Below, in pieces: positions 16,683 through 27,133 of a stretch of DNA of 30,209 nt. Positions within the stretch are counted from its first letter, which is position 1. The number at the start of each line of letters is the position of its first letter. The notes under the pieces were generated by a model. That model saw only the letters and a program-made list of their open reading frames with translations, did not search any database and had not been told where the DNA came from. The position numbers and the translations under genes were made by a program. The DNA is from a virus: IMG/VR virus record IMGVR_UViG_3300021368_000405, positions 1 through 30,209 of that record; one strand, 5' to 3'.

Positions 16683-19600
16683 ATGGATGATCCAATTCAG
16701 GAACTTGGGAACGTTACAACAGAACTTACCGATGAAGCAAAAGCACGTCTTGAAGCTGAGATAAGTTCATTAGATGTTTCCAAGAACTTCTACGGAGAAG
16801 AGTCCGAAGAACCTGAAACACCAGAACAACCTCAGGTAAGCCCTGAGCCTACTGGTACCGAACAAGCTGAGCAGCCAGTTGAGCAATCAACTGAGCAGCC
16901 ACAAGCTGAGCAACCGGCTGAGCCGGAAGAACAACAGTGGATGTGGGATAAGGGATACGATGCGGGCGATTCTCTCCGTCAAATTGGAGAGTCAGCCCTC
17001 TTCCTTCCTACTGGTGCTATCGACTTTGCAACTGATCTTATCAATCTAGTTCCAGGTGTCGGTATCCCTAAGCTTCCTAAATTTAAAACAGACGTTTTAC
17101 AGTCTGCACGGGAGCTTTCTTCCTTTATTGTACCTAACGTTGTAGGTATCGGCGTAGCCGGTAACGCAGCACGTGGTCTAGCTGCTGCTTCTAAATGGAA
17201 AGCAGCTAGCGGTACTGTTGCTCGATTCTTTGGTAATACCAGTTTGGCTGCTGGTGTCGGTGCTTTTGTTGACTCGACAAACAAACTAAACGAAAAAGAT
17301 GACAACCTTCAGGGTTCTTTGAAAAAGATGTTCCCTGAAACCTTTCAATGGATTAGCGACGACTGGGCTACTTTAGATAGTGACACTCCAGACGTTAAGA
17401 GATTGAAGAATGTCTACGAAGGTATTGGATTAGGTATCTTTACTGACTTGCTGTTAGGCAGTGCTAAGCTTCTTAGTGCTGTTCGGGGTACTAAAAAGAT
17501 AACTCGTATTATTCCAGATAGCGAAAAGTCTACAGCTTATTTTGCTAAGAATACTGACGCTGCACCGGTTGACGCTGAAGATGCATTTGTCCAGTCCGCT
17601 GCTTCTCGTGAAGAAGCTTTGGATAATCTGGGTGAATGGAACATTACCAACTCGGCTGGTGATCTAGATACTCCAATGAAAGGTGTTCATGATGTATTTG
17701 ACTACGATGAGATCGGAACTCGTTCTCAAGACCCTCTTGGTGTTCACGGTGCTGCAATCGACGCTGCCCGTATTCAAGGAAACCGTTCTACTACTTATGG
17801 CCGCCTTGGCAGTCTCATAACGGATGCCGCTTTGAAGTATGGTATCAAAGCGGAGAATTTGACAAAAAGGATGATTGTGAAGTATATTGCCAATGAGATT
17901 AAACAAGGTGGTAAGTATTCTGTGGAACTGGCCCAGGGCGGTAAGCTGTCATGGGATGAAATTGATAAAGCAGGTACAAACCTGGCTGCCTATATTACCG
18001 ATCCTTCTATGGATCCTAGTATGGTTCGTGGTATCTTGGACGAGTTTAAAAACTCCTACAAGGACCTTAACGTACAGGCACTAGGTAACGTCGGCTATAA
18101 CGCTGCTATGAAGTCGATCCGTCAGTACCTTGACGAGTATATGAATATCGATACTTTGAAGGCACAGGCGTATCTGACTACTTCTATGGGCGGACAGATC
18201 TCTGACATTGCTGAAGGTGCTCGTATTATGGAAGGCACTAACGCTGTTGCTGCTGCCCGAGAGATGATCCGTGACAGGATCAAGTACCTTATGGTAGAGA
18301 AAGGTCTGGCTTCTTACCAGCTAGCTGCAGGCACCGCTTTGTTAAAGGTCTGGAAAGAACAGCCTACCAGTAAAGCGCTCAAGGCTGCGGCTCAAAATGC
18401 TAAAGAGGGTACAGATGCACAGCTTAAGGAGATTATCAGCCGTGCTGAACGTCTGGACAATACCCTTAAAACTCTTGGTGAAGAGCGTCCTGAGTTCCTG
18501 GACCCATTCATCATGGCTTATGAGTACTCTGACGGTAACGTCGATACACTGTCTAAGCTTAACCGTTACTTTGAAGAGAGTCTCCCTAACTTTGCTTCCA
18601 AAGCTTTGTTTGACTCTAACCCAGAGATTCCTAACCAACTGGTTCAAGGTGCTTGGTCTAACATCTACAACTCTGTACTTACTTCTATTTCCACTCCGCT
18701 TAAAGCTGGATTTGGTAACACCGCCTTGATGCTGGCTAAACCGTTGTCTGTCATCGGTGGTGCTGCACTTAGTGGAGACATCAAAGCCATTAAGCGTGGT
18801 TGGTACCAGTACAGCGCTTTTGCTGACACCTTCAAGCGTGGCCTGTCTCACATGAGCATGGTTTACCGTAAGGCTGCTCAAGACCCTACTTCTGTTGGCT
18901 ACATTGTCCGTGATGATATTGCGGTGAAGAATGAAAAGACAATGGATGTTCTGCGTAGCTTTGCTGAATCTGCAGAAAAGGCTGGAGAATCTGGACCGAT
19001 GGTCTTGTACAACCAGGCAGAAGCTCTAAATGATTTGTCTAACCATCCTTGGTTCCGGTTCGGTGCTAACGCTATGACGGCGTTTGACGGATTTACCCGT
19101 GCTGTTCTTGGTGCTGCTGAAGCCCGTGGACGAGCCTGGGACAAATTCGTTGATGGTGGCCGTACTCTTGACGCTAAATCATTGAAAGATGCAGAGCAAG
19201 AGATATACGAAGAGATGTTTGACAAGTCTGGTATGATCACTGATTCTGCAGTTGACCATGCTAGCCGTGAGATTGCTCTTAACCTAGACAACCCTGCTGT
19301 TAAGAATATCAGTGCTTTTGTCGATCGTAATAAGTTCATGAAGCCGTTCTTGATGTTCCCACGGACATCGGCTAACATGATCTCGATGATGAATAAGTTC
19401 AGTCCTGTGTCCCTCTTTATGAAGGATTACAACCGACTGGCTATGCCTGGTGTTAACTTTACAGGCGAAGAGATTGCAGAGATCCTACAATCTAAGGGTA
19501 TTAAAGTCACTGGTGTACCTGAAGTTGACGGTCAAGCGTTCCAGCGTTTGCGTCATGAGATCCGTGGACGTAAGGCTATCGGTACCGTCTCTGTGATGGG

Positions 19601-20612
19601 AGCCGCAGGTTTGTTCATGAATGACAGCCTCCATGGTAACGGTCACTTTGACAAAGAACGTCAAAAGGTACGTCGCGATCTGAACTGGAAGCCTAAGTCC
19701 TATAAAGCTTGGGACGGAAAGTGGTACAGCTATGAATGGCTTGGCCCCCTGGGCGACTGGTTGGCTCTGACTGCTGACGTTATGGATAACTTTGATTCCA
19801 TTACCGAAGCTGATCTAGAAACTAACATAAACAAAATGGGCTTTATCCTTGCCGCTAACTTGACTGATAAGTCAATGCTGGCTGGTTTGGAACCTATGAA
19901 CGATGTGTTGCGTGGTAACCCTGCAGCCATGAATCGTTGGGCAGCTTCGTTCGTCAGCTCTTTGGCACCTTTCTCTGGTGCACGTAATGAGTTCGGACGT
20001 CTTATCTCTCCACAGTTACGTGAAGTAGATATGGAGCTGGGTCAGCTTCTGAGGAACCGTAACAAGTACTTGGATGAACTTGATCCTCAAAATGCTCTGC
20101 CTAACAAATATGATTGGATTGATGGTAAACTTATTGGTTACACCGATAACTTCTTTGTTCGCGGCTGGAATGCTTTCTTCCCTATGAAAGTATCCGACGA
20201 AATTTCCGAAGAACGTCAGTTCTTGCTAGACATCGAGTATGACTCACGTCCTCTGTTTAACAGCAACGGTAAAGGTGTGAAGTACACCCCATCCGAACGT
20301 TCAGAACTTTATAGTCTGATGGGTCAGGATCAATTCTTCAAACGCGATCTAAAGCGTATTATGAAGAGTACAGAGGCTTCCCAGTGGCGTGCTGCTATTA
20401 AAGAAGCTCGCAGATCTGGACGTCAAGTTGATCCTAAACTTTGGGATGCTTTGTATCTAAGGATTGACCGTTCTTTGTTGAAAGCAAAACGGGCGGCAGA
20501 AATCAAGCTGTCTAACCGTGAAGAAATTAAAGTACGTCAATACGAAGCACAGATTAACAAATATGATCAACAAAGAGGCAACGCTCCTCGTTTCCCTCTT
20601 ACTAACAAATGA
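16683..20612 (+). CDS. Internal virion protein D (T7 gp16 position), without the N-terminal transglycosylase
   Basis: The largest ejected core protein, 1309 residues (T7 gp16 is 1318). The first 95 residues are acidic and rich in Glu, Pro and Gln (repeats like EQPVEQSTEQPQAEQPAEP) and carry no lysozyme motif. Hydrophobic, Gly/Ala-rich stretches follow (LVPGVGIPKLP; FIVPNVVGIGVAGNAARGLAAA; YEGIGLGIFTDLLLGSAKLL), suited to crossing the inner membrane. Later regions include KPFLMFPRTSANMISMMNKF, typical of cyanopodoviral gp16, and YSYEWLGPLGDWLAL. It lies directly after the gp15 equivalent, as expected. Position, length and these blocks make the assignment firm. Confidence 0.9.
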   Translation: MDDPIQELGNVTTELTDEAKARLEAEISSLDVSKNFYGEESEEPETPEQPQVSPEPTGTEQAEQPVEQSTEQPQAEQPAEPEEQQWMWDKGYDAGDSLRQIGESALFLPTGAIDFATDLINLVPGVGIPKLPKFKTDVLQSARELSSFIVPNVVGIGVAGNAARGLAAASKWKAASGTVARFFGNTSLAAGVGAFVDSTNKLNEKDDNLQGSLKKMFPETFQWISDDWATLDSDTPDVKRLKNVYEGIGLGIFTDLLLGSAKLLSAVRGTKKITRIIPDSEKSTAYFAKNTDAAPVDAEDAFVQSAASREEALDNLGEWNITNSAGDLDTPMKGVHDVFDYDEIGTRSQDPLGVHGAAIDAARIQGNRSTTYGRLGSLITDAALKYGIKAENLTKRMIVKYIANEIKQGGKYSVELAQGGKLSWDEIDKAGTNLAAYITDPSMDPSMVRGILDEFKNSYKDLNVQALGNVGYNAAMKSIRQYLDEYMNIDTLKAQAYLTTSMGGQISDIAEGARIMEGTNAVAAAREMIRDRIKYLMVEKGLASYQLAAGTALLKVWKEQPTSKALKAAAQNAKEGTDAQLKEIISRAERLDNTLKTLGEERPEFLDPFIMAYEYSDGNVDTLSKLNRYFEESLPNFASKALFDSNPEIPNQLVQGAWSNIYNSVLTSISTPLKAGFGNTALMLAKPLSVIGGAALSGDIKAIKRGWYQYSAFADTFKRGLSHMSMVYRKAAQDPTSVGYIVRDDIAVKNEKTMDVLRSFAESAEKAGESGPMVLYNQAEALNDLSNHPWFRFGANAMTAFDGFTRAVLGAAEARGRAWDKFVDGGRTLDAKSLKDAEQEIYEEMFDKSGMITDSAVDHASREIALNLDNPAVKNISAFVDRNKFMKPFLMFPRTSANMISMMNKFSPVSLFMKDYNRLAMPGVNFTGEEIAEILQSKGIKVTGVPEVDGQAFQRLRHEIRGRKAIGTVSVMGAAGLFMNDSLHGNGHFDKERQKVRRDLNWKPKSYKAWDGKWYSYEWLGPLGDWLALTADVMDNFDSITEADLETNINKMGFILAANLTDKSMLAGLEPMNDVLRGNPAAMNRWAASFVSSLAPFSGARNEFGRLISPQLREVDMELGQLLRNRNKYLDELDPQNALPNKYDWIDGKLIGYTDNFFVRGWNAFFPMKVSDEISEERQFLLDIEYDSRPLFNSNGKGVKYTPSERSELYSLMGQDQFFKRDLKRIMKSTEASQWRAAIKEARRSGRQVDPKLWDALYLRIDRSLLKAKRAAEIKLSNREEIKVRQYEAQINKYDQQRGNAPRFPLTNK

Positions 20613-21569: not shown

Positions 21570-24293
21570 ATGGCACAAATTGATCTCGGAAAACTTAAAT
21601 TCCAATGGAAGGGTCTTTGGACTACTTCCACTGCATACGAAGTAGATGACGTAGTGCACTACGACGGCAGCACTTATGTTGTCGTTACCGACGTTCCCGC
21701 AACTAACACCACTAACCCTGGTAGCAGCAGCCTGTTTGAGCTGATGGCTCGTGGTCTGAAGTTCCGTGGAGCCTACGTTGCATCTAACACATATCTCCAT
21801 AACGAAATCGTTACTTTTAACGGTGCTTCATGGATCTCTATTCAAAGCAACGCTTTCACAGGACAGACCCCTGCTAGTGGTTCGTCTTACTGGGAAGTTA
21901 TTACCCCAGCTCCTGCATCTAATGTTCTGACTCAATCCGGTGATCTTGTTTACCTGGACAACGAGCTGAACACTCAACGTCTGCCTATCGGCGCTAAAAA
22001 CACCACACTGACTGTGGTAGACAAGCCGTTCCACAGCATTCCTCGTGCTGCAACTTATAGCGTCAACGGTTCTGGTACAGCTGCTAAAGCAGTGCTGACT
22101 GATGACGACGACGCTACCAATGTGTACGGCAGCTCTACGCAGCAAGCTGCAATCACTGTTAGCCGTGGTACATCTTATGAGATCACGTTCCCTGCTAATG
22201 GTCTAACCTATTCGATCAAAGATCCCGCAGCTTCTGGTTACTCAACTGCTGGTTCTAACGGTCGTTTGACTAGCGGTACTAGCCCAGCGTTTGTTAACAA
22301 CGGTGGTGTAATTACATTTACACCTGACTCAACTACCCCTAACACGGTTAAGATCCGTGACGAAGCGAACGGTGTTGACGAAGTAACTGTTACTGTTGTT
22401 GACCTGCGGAAGGAGCCGGCCTGGTCCGACGAAACACTTGTTAGCTACAAAGCAGACAAGGTTGCTGGTGGACTCCAGCGGAACACCTATACCAGCTCAG
22501 TGCAAGCCTTACCGCCGCACCTCGTTGGTTACGGCCGTGGCCGCCTGATGAACAGCGGAAGCCAGTACCGCGCTGGCGATTATCTGACCAAATCAGGTGA
22601 TTTGATGTCGTGGGGCAACATGTATTACAACGGCACGCAAGGCCTTTATTACGATTCACACGGAACTGGCTCAGCCAACACGGCGACTTGGGACCCTGCT
22701 CAAGGAAATCTGAACATGCCTGGTTTTTACCAGGACGCAATTTCAGGCGTTGCAACTGAAGCGAAATGGCTAAATGATCTCGCTGGCAACAGCCTTGGAC
22801 ACACGCAATGGAATCAACTCAAGATTATTCAATATGACAAAGGTGCTTATCACACCTATGTCTTGCTGGAAAACGGCATCATGATGATGGCTGGTTATAC
22901 CGGCTACGGTCAAAGGTCGGCCGGTGATACGACCAACCACCAGAACACATTTGTCAATGTCCCGTTCTACAACTCTTCTGGAACGCTGCTAGAAGGTGCA
23001 GCTCGCCCAAGAATCAAGTTTTTCCAGTCCACAGATTTTGACGACGGCTACAGCTACAGCTACAACAAATCTTTTGCAATCGACGAAGATGGCAAGCTGT
23101 ACAGTTGGGGTTACAACGGCTATGGCAACCTTGCGGACGGAACTGCAGTCAGCAATTACTATGCTCGTGAAGTCCCTCTGTCGAAGTTTGGCAACGAAAA
23201 AATTCTTTGCATGTCTTCGTCAACTGGGCAATACAGCCATCACGCTGCAATTACTGAAAGCGGCAAAGTATGGGCTTGGGGCTACAACGGATACGGACAG
23301 CTTGGCGATGGCTCCACAAGTTACCAAACAAACCCTGTAGAAATCACCGCAGTATCCGGTTCAGCTCTTAACGGCAAAACTGTCACGCACGTCATGTGTG
23401 TTGACGCCACTCAAAGCACAGGCCTTACTTACTACTTAACTACCGAAGGCAAGGTTTATGTCTCCGGCTATAGCGAAGACTACGGAGTTTACTCAGGGGT
23501 TTACAACGCTTCTACTCCTGTAAACATCACAACGCCTCTTGAGCTGACTAACGCTTCCACGACAATCAATGCCAACGGCGGCAAAGCGATCATGTTTGCT
23601 CGCAGCAACAGCCGTTACGGAACATTGTTTGTGCAAACCGATGGTGGCACAACTAACCAGCCCAAGATTTTTGCATGGGGTGGCAACAGCTACGGCAACC
23701 ATGGCGCAGGTGCAAACAACTCCTCTGGCGCAAGCGCAACAGCGCAAGGCAACTGGTTCGGTAATGAAATCAAATTCATGACCCGAGGCAATCCTCACGA
23801 CGTAGCAGTCGGCACTGCTGGAAACCCTGGTGGAGCTTCTGGTTATACCAGCAGGCTAAAGGATCAAATTGTTGGCACTCAATACGACACCAACATCGCT
23901 TCCAGGATGAAGATTGGCAAGATCGTCATGATCTGGTCTCAAAGTATTACCAACAGCTCGTACACGTCGACCATGTTGATGGACGAATACGGATCACTGT
24001 TTATGGCCGGCTCAGTGGGAGATGGCAATACTTGGTTCAGCGGTTTTGATGTTGATCATCCATACGATATTTTTGGAACGGAAAACATCAGCCACTACTT
24101 TATGCAAGTTCACGGTCAGCCTGAACAAGCAAAAGACTGGAAGTGGATGCACCAGAACAGCCTGGGAACCGCCGGCATGATGATTGGCAAGTCTGGCACC
24201 GCGTATACAATCGGATCATCTTCAAGTTGGTATATGCTGGGAGCCAGAAACACCCAGACCACCTGGCATCCTGTTATTGGAACTACGAACTGA
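21570..24293 (+). CDS. Distal tail fibre / receptor-binding protein with RCC1-like beta-propeller
   Basis: A 907-residue protein directly after the fibre anchor. Residues 10-95 hold two related modules of carbohydrate-binding type (KGLWTTSTAYEVDDVVHYDGSTYV and RGAYVASNTYLHNEIVTFNGASW). A beta-rich linker follows to about 275. From about 340 onward, repeated Gly-(K/S)-x-(Y/W)-x-W/A-Gly motifs recur: DLMSWG (about 343), MMMAGYTGYGQ (about 434), KLYSWGYNGYGNLADG (about 507), KVWAWGYNGYGQLGDG (about 564), KVYVSGYSEDYG (about 626), KIFAWGGNSYGNHG (about 698), SLFMAGSVGDG (about 807), TAYTIGSSSS (about 876). This is the RCC1 repeat pattern, implying a seven-bladed propeller. It likely determines host receptor choice. 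Glycine codon use changes sharply near 22395. Confidence 0.78.
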   Translation: MAQIDLGKLKFQWKGLWTTSTAYEVDDVVHYDGSTYVVVTDVPATNTTNPGSSSLFELMARGLKFRGAYVASNTYLHNEIVTFNGASWISIQSNAFTGQTPASGSSYWEVITPAPASNVLTQSGDLVYLDNELNTQRLPIGAKNTTLTVVDKPFHSIPRAATYSVNGSGTAAKAVLTDDDDATNVYGSSTQQAAITVSRGTSYEITFPANGLTYSIKDPAASGYSTAGSNGRLTSGTSPAFVNNGGVITFTPDSTTPNTVKIRDEANGVDEVTVTVVDLRKEPAWSDETLVSYKADKVAGGLQRNTYTSSVQALPPHLVGYGRGRLMNSGSQYRAGDYLTKSGDLMSWGNMYYNGTQGLYYDSHGTGSANTATWDPAQGNLNMPGFYQDAISGVATEAKWLNDLAGNSLGHTQWNQLKIIQYDKGAYHTYVLLENGIMMMAGYTGYGQRSAGDTTNHQNTFVNVPFYNSSGTLLEGAARPRIKFFQSTDFDDGYSYSYNKSFAIDEDGKLYSWGYNGYGNLADGTAVSNYYAREVPLSKFGNEKILCMSSSTGQYSHHAAITESGKVWAWGYNGYGQLGDGSTSYQTNPVEITAVSGSALNGKTVTHVMCVDATQSTGLTYYLTTEGKVYVSGYSEDYGVYSGVYNASTPVNITTPLELTNASTTINANGGKAIMFARSNSRYGTLFVQTDGGTTNQPKIFAWGGNSYGNHGAGANNSSGASATAQGNWFGNEIKFMTRGNPHDVAVGTAGNPGGASGYTSRLKDQIVGTQYDTNIASRMKIGKIVMIWSQSITNSSYTSTMLMDEYGSLFMAGSVGDGNTWFSGFDVDHPYDIFGTENISHYFMQVHGQPEQAKDWKWMHQNSLGTAGMMIGKSGTAYTIGSSSSWYMLGARNTQTTWHPVIGTTN

Positions 24294-24543: not shown

Positions 24544-24702
24544 ATGTTTGCACTTATCCGTCCTTTGCTGTTCTCTTTTCTTAACAGCGACAAAACTAAG
24601 CGTCTGATTGTGGACCTGCTCCGCAAACTGGCAGAACAGTCTGACAACAAAGTAGATGATCAGGCTGTTGATTTCATTGAACGCGGTCTTTTTAACAAGT
24701 AA
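24544..24702 (+). CDS. Small protein with hydrophobic N-terminus (52 aa)
   Basis: Encodes MFALIRPLLFSFLNSDKTKR followed by a charged helix (LIVDLLRKLAEQSDN) and DDQAVDFIERGLF. The first 13 residues are hydrophobic with one Arg, giving an amphipathic membrane-surface helix rather than a clear transmembrane span. I recall closely similar short proteins in other cyanophages. Its location after the tail fibre matches the T7 holin gene 17.5, but a proper membrane span is lacking, so I prefer the 25100 gene as holin. The stop overlaps the next start (TAATG). Confidence 0.6.
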   Translation: MFALIRPLLFSFLNSDKTKRLIVDLLRKLAEQSDNKVDDQAVDFIERGLFNK

Positions 24703-26563: not shown

Positions 26564-26807
26564 CACCTCTGAATACTACAAACACAACATGCCTGCCAGG
26601 CTGAAGCGTAACCGCCAGCAAGCCCGGTACAATAAAACACAAAAAGGCAAGGATCTTCGGATCAAAGCAAATGCACTTAATCGACAGTTAGGTACTTACG
26701 GTAATAACGACGGTTTGGATGCTTCTCATACCGGTCCTAAAACAGGACGGAAAGAATCTCCAAGCAAGAATCGCCGTAGACCTAGACTAAAGATTAAGTA
26801 CGCATGA
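26550..26807 (+). CDS. Small basic conserved phage protein (85 aa, SPSKNRRR motif)
   Basis: A strongly basic protein: NTSEYYKHNMPARLKRNRQQ, a helical Lys/Arg/Gln middle, then YGNNDGLDASHTGP and ESPSKNRRRPRLKIKYA. The EYY..N..AR...R..Y and SPSKNRGR-type motifs recur in a family of small phage proteins of unknown function, often beside HNH or terminase genes, to my recollection. Composition suggests nucleic-acid binding. It overlaps TerS by 14 bases and the HNH gene by four (ATGA), so it belongs to the packaging-region chain. Confidence 0.7.
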   Translation: MANANTSEYYKHNMPARLKRNRQQARYNKTQKGKDLRIKANALNRQLGTYGNNDGLDASHTGPKTGRKESPSKNRRRPRLKIKYA

Positions 26808-27133
26808 CCCCATTACTTCCCACACCTGACGACTACCTCTACAACCTTATAACCATGACGTCCCCTGAAGCTAAGCGCCTCTGGAGGCGTGCTATCAAAG
26901 AACATTTTGGTTGTACCTGTGTATACTGTGGACAAACCTATGATTTACATGACCTTACTATTGATCACGTTCATCCTCGCAGCCTTGGCGGCCAGGATTT
27001 ATCCTTCAACGTCGTACCGGCTTGCTCCTGCTGTAATCAGGCCAAAGGAAGTAACAACTGGCTCTCTTGGATGAGAGAAACATTCGGTGTAAACCGTCTT
27101 AGAGAAACACTAATTCTTTCACATATTCGATAA
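26804..27133 (+). CDS. HNH endonuclease (109 aa)
   Basis: The HNH (beta-beta-alpha-metal) motif is complete. C39-x2-C42 (CVYC) starts the zinc site, D54-H55 in LTIDHVHPRSLGG supplies the general base His, Asn69 follows in FNVVPAC, and C74-x2-C77 then N78 close it with CNQAKGSNNW. It cleaves or nicks DNA. In many phages an HNH protein next to the terminase takes part in packaging cleavage; in T7-like phages HNH proteins are more often homing endonucleases. The gene is free-standing, not inside an intron, and overlaps both neighbours (ATGA and TAATG), favouring a settled functional gene over a recent homing insertion. Confidence 0.9.
   Translation: MTPLLPTPDDYLYNLITMTSPEAKRLWRRAIKEHFGCTCVYCGQTYDLHDLTIDHVHPRSLGGQDLSFNVVPACSCCNQAKGSNNWLSWMRETFGVNRLRETLILSHIR

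Follow-up and report, generated by a model that had tools for sequence, protein, structure and literature searches.

What is a protein with RCC1-type repeats doing at the tail fibre locus of a podovirus? Host recognition by cyanophages and other marine podoviruses is poorly known. In this study, we analysed a virus record of 30,209 bases, referred to here as the window (the whole stretch of DNA). The window encodes a ribonucleotide reductase fragment, portal, scaffold, PsbA (photosystem II D1), the major head protein, tail tube proteins and the terminase large subunit, which is cut off by the window end. The nearest isolated relatives of tail tube protein B were found in the Synechococcus podoviruses S-SBP1 and S-RIP2 (approximately 49% identity). 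Because of these relatives and the presence of psbA, the window is, as judged from its genes, a T7-like cyanophage, and its hosts appear to be marine cyanobacteria. A 1309-aa ORF (16683-20612) precedes the fibre locus at the place of the S-SBP1 internal core protein. As in a T7-type fibre system, the internal virion protein gene is followed at this locus by a gene with a T7-type N-terminal anchor. The features of the locus are listed in Table 1. Shortly downstream of the DNA packaging protein gene lies a small HNH endonuclease gene (26804-27133, 109 aa), and ORFs of equal size with a similar start (MTPLLPTP...) occur in four other contigs (L002-L005).

Table 1. Features of the fibre locus, with residue numbers of the 907-aa protein
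Feature	Position	Strand	Evidence or remark
Short T7-gp17-like fibre, 308 aa	20640..21566	+	Phage_T7_tail PF03906, PHROG tail fibre matches
Propeller fibre protein, 907 aa	21570..24293	+	Separate gene
N-terminal module MAQIDLGKLKFxWKG	21582..21914	+	Two tandem CBM_5_12-like repeats, residues ~5-60 and ~56-115
Middle all-beta region, residues ~160-285, stalk side of head	22047..22424	+	AlphaFold2 strands
RCC1-type beta-propeller head, residues ~292-886	22443..24227	+	Pfam RCC1/RCC1_2, structural matches, model
Blade 1 hairpin, 335-350	22572..22619	+	Profile match to blade 4, 62-65%; AlphaFold2 strands
Blade 2 hairpin, 419-443	22824..22898	+	Profile match to blade 3, 97-98%
Blade 3 hairpin, 500-514	23067..23111	+	Pfam, profile comparison
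Blade 4 hairpin, 557-571	23238..23282	+	Pfam, profile comparison
Blade 5 hairpin, 619-635	23424..23474	+	Profile match to blade 4, 95-96%
Blade 6 hairpin, 685-704	23622..23681	+	Profile match to blade 4, 98%
Blade 7 hairpin, 799-815	23964..24014	+	Profile match to blade 5, 95%
Blade 8 hairpin, 866-882	24165..24215	+	Profile match to blade 3, 63-79%

The 907-aa protein contains eight degenerate RCC1 repeats

The original prediction had described about eight recurrences of the motif G-x-[LVI]-[YWF]-x-[WA]-G in an interval that corresponds to residues 341-907 of the 907-aa protein. The exact motif was found there only three times (GKLYSWG at 508, GKVWAWG at 565 and GSLFMAG at 808), where shuffled copies would be expected to give 0.02. 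The count of eight held for a relaxed form of the motif, with 1.5 occurrences expected in shuffled copies (p ~2e-4), and for the eight homologous blades described below. An RCC1 profile search, proposed in the same prediction, bore it out: Pfam detected RCC1_2 (8.2e-21, 73.6 bits, cutoff 22) and RCC1 (7.5e-15, 55.7 bits, cutoff 21.7), both over the curated cutoffs that mark members of the RCC1/RCC1-like repeat superfamily. The whole-domain model WD40_RLD gave 105.4 bits (5.2e-30), short of its 150-bit gathering threshold. In sequence, the best-matching proteins of solved structure were the RCC1-like domains of UVR8 and HERC proteins (E ~1e-26 to 1e-17). These results confirm that the eight degenerate RCC1 repeats in the 907-aa protein are real. 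A cellular donor was sought in bacterial genomes and none stood out; RCC1 proteins of many phyla matched weakly, mostly at 24-37% identity.

The repeats are predicted to fold into a propeller, probably with eight blades

AlphaFold2 was run with 36 family members as input, and the models are monomers. The whole 907-aa protein was modelled with a pLDDT of 77.8, residues 284-907 alone gave a pTM of 0.82, and confidence was low at residues 740-779 and 825-838. The model is an RCC1-type beta-propeller, as had been predicted. Its top structural matches were RCC1-like domains, with VIA Z values of 23.7 for HERC2 RLD2, 22.8 for UVR8 and 19.2 for RCC1, and HERC1 and RPGR were matched as well. A second comparison with PDB structures covered the chains ranked by Foldseek only. 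A beta-helix or a triple-stranded fibre, named beforehand as the outcomes that would speak against a propeller, was not what structure prediction gave. The solved RCC1-like domains align over residues ~292-875 of the model, and the domain is predicted to start near residue 290 instead of residue 330, where it had originally been placed.

Canonical RCC1 propellers have seven blades, as the original prediction had noted. We cut eight segments around the conserved hairpins from the 36-relative family alignment and compared them profile against profile. The family profiles gave eight homologous repeats and not seven, with all eight hairpins conserved across the 36 relatives. Each of blades 2-7 had a match of 95% or higher to one or more of the others. 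Blades 1 and 8 were the weakest, with best scores of 25 and 27; when propeller segments were compared with N-terminal control segments, scores reached at most 17. By comparison, UVR8 has seven such hairpins, as read from its repeats in the sequence matches. The RCC1-like templates fitted the model at 3.8-5.1 A. Of the WD40 propellers that also appeared in the structure match lists, many (for example Cdc4, ODA16, WDR41 and FBXW8) are eight-bladed, and so is the designed Ika8.

A ring of seven blades plus one hairpin placed outside it as an accessory element would agree with the low scores of blades 1 and 8 and with the alignment of solved RCC1-like domains along nearly the whole head (292-875). 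We regard it as rather unlikely, given that all eight hairpins are kept in the relatives, that the RCC1-like structures fit loosely and that the match lists include many eight-bladed propellers. Because of the eight homologous hairpins, the loose template fit and these match-list propellers, the propeller is likely eight-bladed.

The propeller gene is paired with a short putative adaptor gene

In the 308-aa protein, a Phage_T7_tail N-terminal domain (PF03906, 1.1e-13, above the Pfam cutoff) is followed by a coiled stalk and then by a small C-terminal domain, whose last residues are FNSNGHLILEA. The Pfam search found the Phage_T7_tail domain in this preceding gene and not in the 907-aa chain, so the propeller protein is not a single-chain fibre of the gp17 type. 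The start codon of the propeller gene lies 3 nt past the stop of the 308-aa gene, and we propose that the 308-aa protein is an adaptor carrying the propeller fibre.

A scan found the fibre N-terminus MAQIDLGKLKF in ~80 marine virus contigs, a figure in which some entries are two stretches of one contig. The upstream ORF ended just before the fibre gene in all 84 family sequences, usually by no more than 4 nt (usual gap 1-4). In most family loci this ORF matched the window adaptor by phmmer; among the 84 sequences, no phmmer match to the adaptor was obtained for L021 and for the loci of other phages (L087-L094), in six of which the gap was 10-68 nt. The partner proteins usually end in a sequence resembling FNSNGHLIL. 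A strict motif, GHL[IVLT] near the C-terminus, was present in 63 of the 84 partners and in none of 235 control ORFs, and a loose form was present in 81 of 84 versus 10 of 235. As read from these sequences, the adaptor C-terminal domain and the fibre N-terminus would most simply form a docking pair. Between the adaptor C-terminal domain and the protein preceding the fibre of a T4-like cyanophage, no firm link was found (14% for S-BM3).

The N-terminal module of the 907-aa protein, which we propose docks to the adaptor, scored barely above the Pfam cutoff for CBM_5_12 (26.7 bits against 26.2), and its two CBM_5_12-like segments matched each other with 98% profile probability. The module is common to the fibres of T4-like cyanophages and pelagiphages (99% profile probability). 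The strands of the middle region that follows were modelled mostly with high confidence.

At the fibre N-terminus, residues ~41-117 were exchanged independently of the rest in relatives (L023 versus L077, L033 versus L085). A C-x2-H-x2-M motif that looks like a type-1 copper (cupredoxin) site was present in 54 of 69 family sequences of at least 450 aa. It lies in an insert near residue 290 that is missing from the window protein and occurs in L022, L053 (residues ~200-300), L085 and other longer relatives; in L078, Copper-bind scored 0.004, under the cutoff. Finally, L241 and L247 carry successive genes that open with variants of the N-terminal module (MATLDFGKVQLTWKG..., MATTKTRIGNLFFNYQG..., MAKINLGRIKLQFQG...), which suggests that fibre proteins are docked serially in chains.

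Gene fusions and head exchange point to a probable host-recognition head

In two uncultivated contigs, L188 and L226, the T7-fibre N-terminal domain (5.5e-20 and 2.9e-10, respectively) and the RCC1 repeats were found in one chain. The L188 protein was 35% identical to the window head over 586 aa and, in a separate alignment, matched the window adaptor with an E-value of 1e-26. Its alignment to the 907-aa chain runs through to its own last residues, and its neighbour gene encodes a cyanopodovirus internal core protein. Since the T7-fibre N-terminal domain and a homologous propeller form one chain in these contigs, the comparison supports the assignment of the propeller to a podoviral fibre, as proposed earlier. 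The propeller of the window does not, however, form the distal end of the T7-like chain itself, being encoded by a separate gene after the 308-aa adaptor.

The same fusions bear on a role in DNA binding, in which the RCC1 protein would act like eukaryotic RCC1 and, as an internal protein, organise the packaged genome or bind host chromatin. Ordering of DNA by RCC1-like proteins has been proposed in jumbo phages, where phAPEC6 has eleven of them (PMC7247149), and PHROGs places RCC1 phage families in DNA metabolism. Here the domain is attached to a tail-fibre N-terminal module common to other fibres, its gene stands after the fibre adaptor gene, and in L188 and L226 its homologue is joined to a T7 fibre N-terminus. 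We therefore consider a DNA role very improbable.

Two pairs of relatives (L043/L053 and L034/L055) had heads that were 83-88% identical, while the stalk and N-terminal part was only ~40% identical. The identity switched at residues ~285-335, which coincides with the predicted domain boundary. In L078, L087 and L092, the N-terminus was kept and a Gly-rich tip replaced the RCC1 head. Such mosaicism of head and stalk is what one would expect if the head were exchangeable and served in recognition. In other virus contigs (L008-L011), RCC1 repeats were present in a fibre-like protein that begins with a different N-terminus and, in L008 and L010, matches the tail fibre family phrog_693. This suggests that RCC1 heads have been used independently.

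RCC1-type propellers are general protein-binding platforms, and the propeller might instead be a structural spacer or branching hub, with the receptor-binding tip carried by another protein such as that of a small downstream gene. Further ORFs do lie 3' of the propeller gene, starting at 24702, and in related phages the first fibre gene is followed by several others. This reading seems improbable to us, as the 907-aa chain stops within ~20 residues of the propeller, L188 aligns to its own end, and the head is the very part that is exchanged between otherwise different stalks. A receptor-binding role is preferred, and the propeller probably grips the host cell.

Proposed assembly of the fibre

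We consider it highly probable that the 308-aa and 907-aa genes together encode a two-gene tail fibre of a T7-like cyanophage, with an eight-bladed RCC1-type propeller as its exchangeable host-recognition head. In this model, the short 308-aa protein would dock on the tail via its T7-type N-terminal domain, and its C-terminal domain would hold the N-terminus (MAQIDLGKLKF...) of the 907-aa protein. The C-terminal ~600 residues of the latter would fold as the eight-bladed propeller and bind a receptor on the cell surface, for which lipopolysaccharide or an outer-membrane protein would be candidates. The T7-type fibre is a trimer; the assembly here would presumably be trimeric too, which would place three large propellers on each fibre, whereas our models are monomeric.

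In a broader reading, which we favour only slightly, marine podoviruses would share one family of eight-bladed RCC1-type propellers as exchangeable receptor-binding heads, each shifted as a whole between one-chain T7-type fibres and two-gene fibres with a common adaptor-docking code. If this were true, host-recognition heads could be swapped without change to tail attachment. The presence of the propeller head on dozens of marine virus contigs, with conserved gene pairing, provides a defined domain of ~600 residues to express and test.

Comparison with known systems

The closest isolated cyanopodoviruses (S-SBP1, S-RIP2 and MedDCM-S45-C4) have long single-chain fibres at the same locus, and were absent among the tblastn matches listed for the window propeller protein. 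In the structure of cyanophage P-SCSP1u, the fibre N-termini were resolved and the distal parts were not (PMC10575957). The fibres of T4-like cyanophages and pelagiphages (S-BM3, Mosig) have the same N-terminal module as the window protein, but other distal parts (only the N-terminus aligns) and myovirus tails. Gp1 of jumbo phage GAP32 is also an RCC1-fold protein in a phage, and was seen in the virion by mass spectrometry (PMC5259590); unlike the window protein, it is a stand-alone protein of 385 aa without a fibre module. The RCC1-like domains of UVR8, HERC1/2 and RCC1 share RCC1 repeats and the propeller fold with the window protein, whereas the latter has eight repeats and large insertions, is on a phage fibre and is without signs of a Ran or ubiquitin-ligase context.

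L188 and L226 are uncultivated podoviruses, L188 being cyanopodovirus-like. They share the homologous propeller and the T7-type N-terminus with the window; they differ in that adaptor and head form one continuous chain, in which the CBM-like docking module was not found.

Searches of open-licence papers turned up no account of a podoviral fibre with an RCC1 head. Among known phages, Pseudomonas phage PollyC (gp12) and Ppr_SeaP1-4 (Autographiviridae) have, like the window, a T7-fibre N-terminal domain and distal RCC1 repeats. In PollyC gp12, PF03906 scored 6.7e-5 (23.1 bits, slightly under the cutoff of 25.2) and RCC1 1.1e-24. PollyC gp16 had been considered as the fibre and was rejected, gp16 being the nozzle and gp12 the fibre. 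In contrast to the window, these phages infect Pseudomonas and have the fibre in one chain instead of two genes, without the MAQIDLG module. Their fibres were absent among the sequence-search matches listed for the window protein; therefore, the likeness lies in repeat type and fold. For the near relatives of PollyC (SeaD1, SeaD2 and IPa-2), the alignment was limited to the first 128 aa, a pattern that would be consistent with head exchange. Littlefix gp88 has RCC1 repeats too. The finding of a propeller head suggests that phage proteins annotated 'regulator of chromosome condensation' include tail fibres. We agree with the original prediction that the architecture is uncommon for T7-like fibres, though with PollyC and Ppr_SeaP1-4 as precedents an RCC1-headed fibre is not unprecedented.
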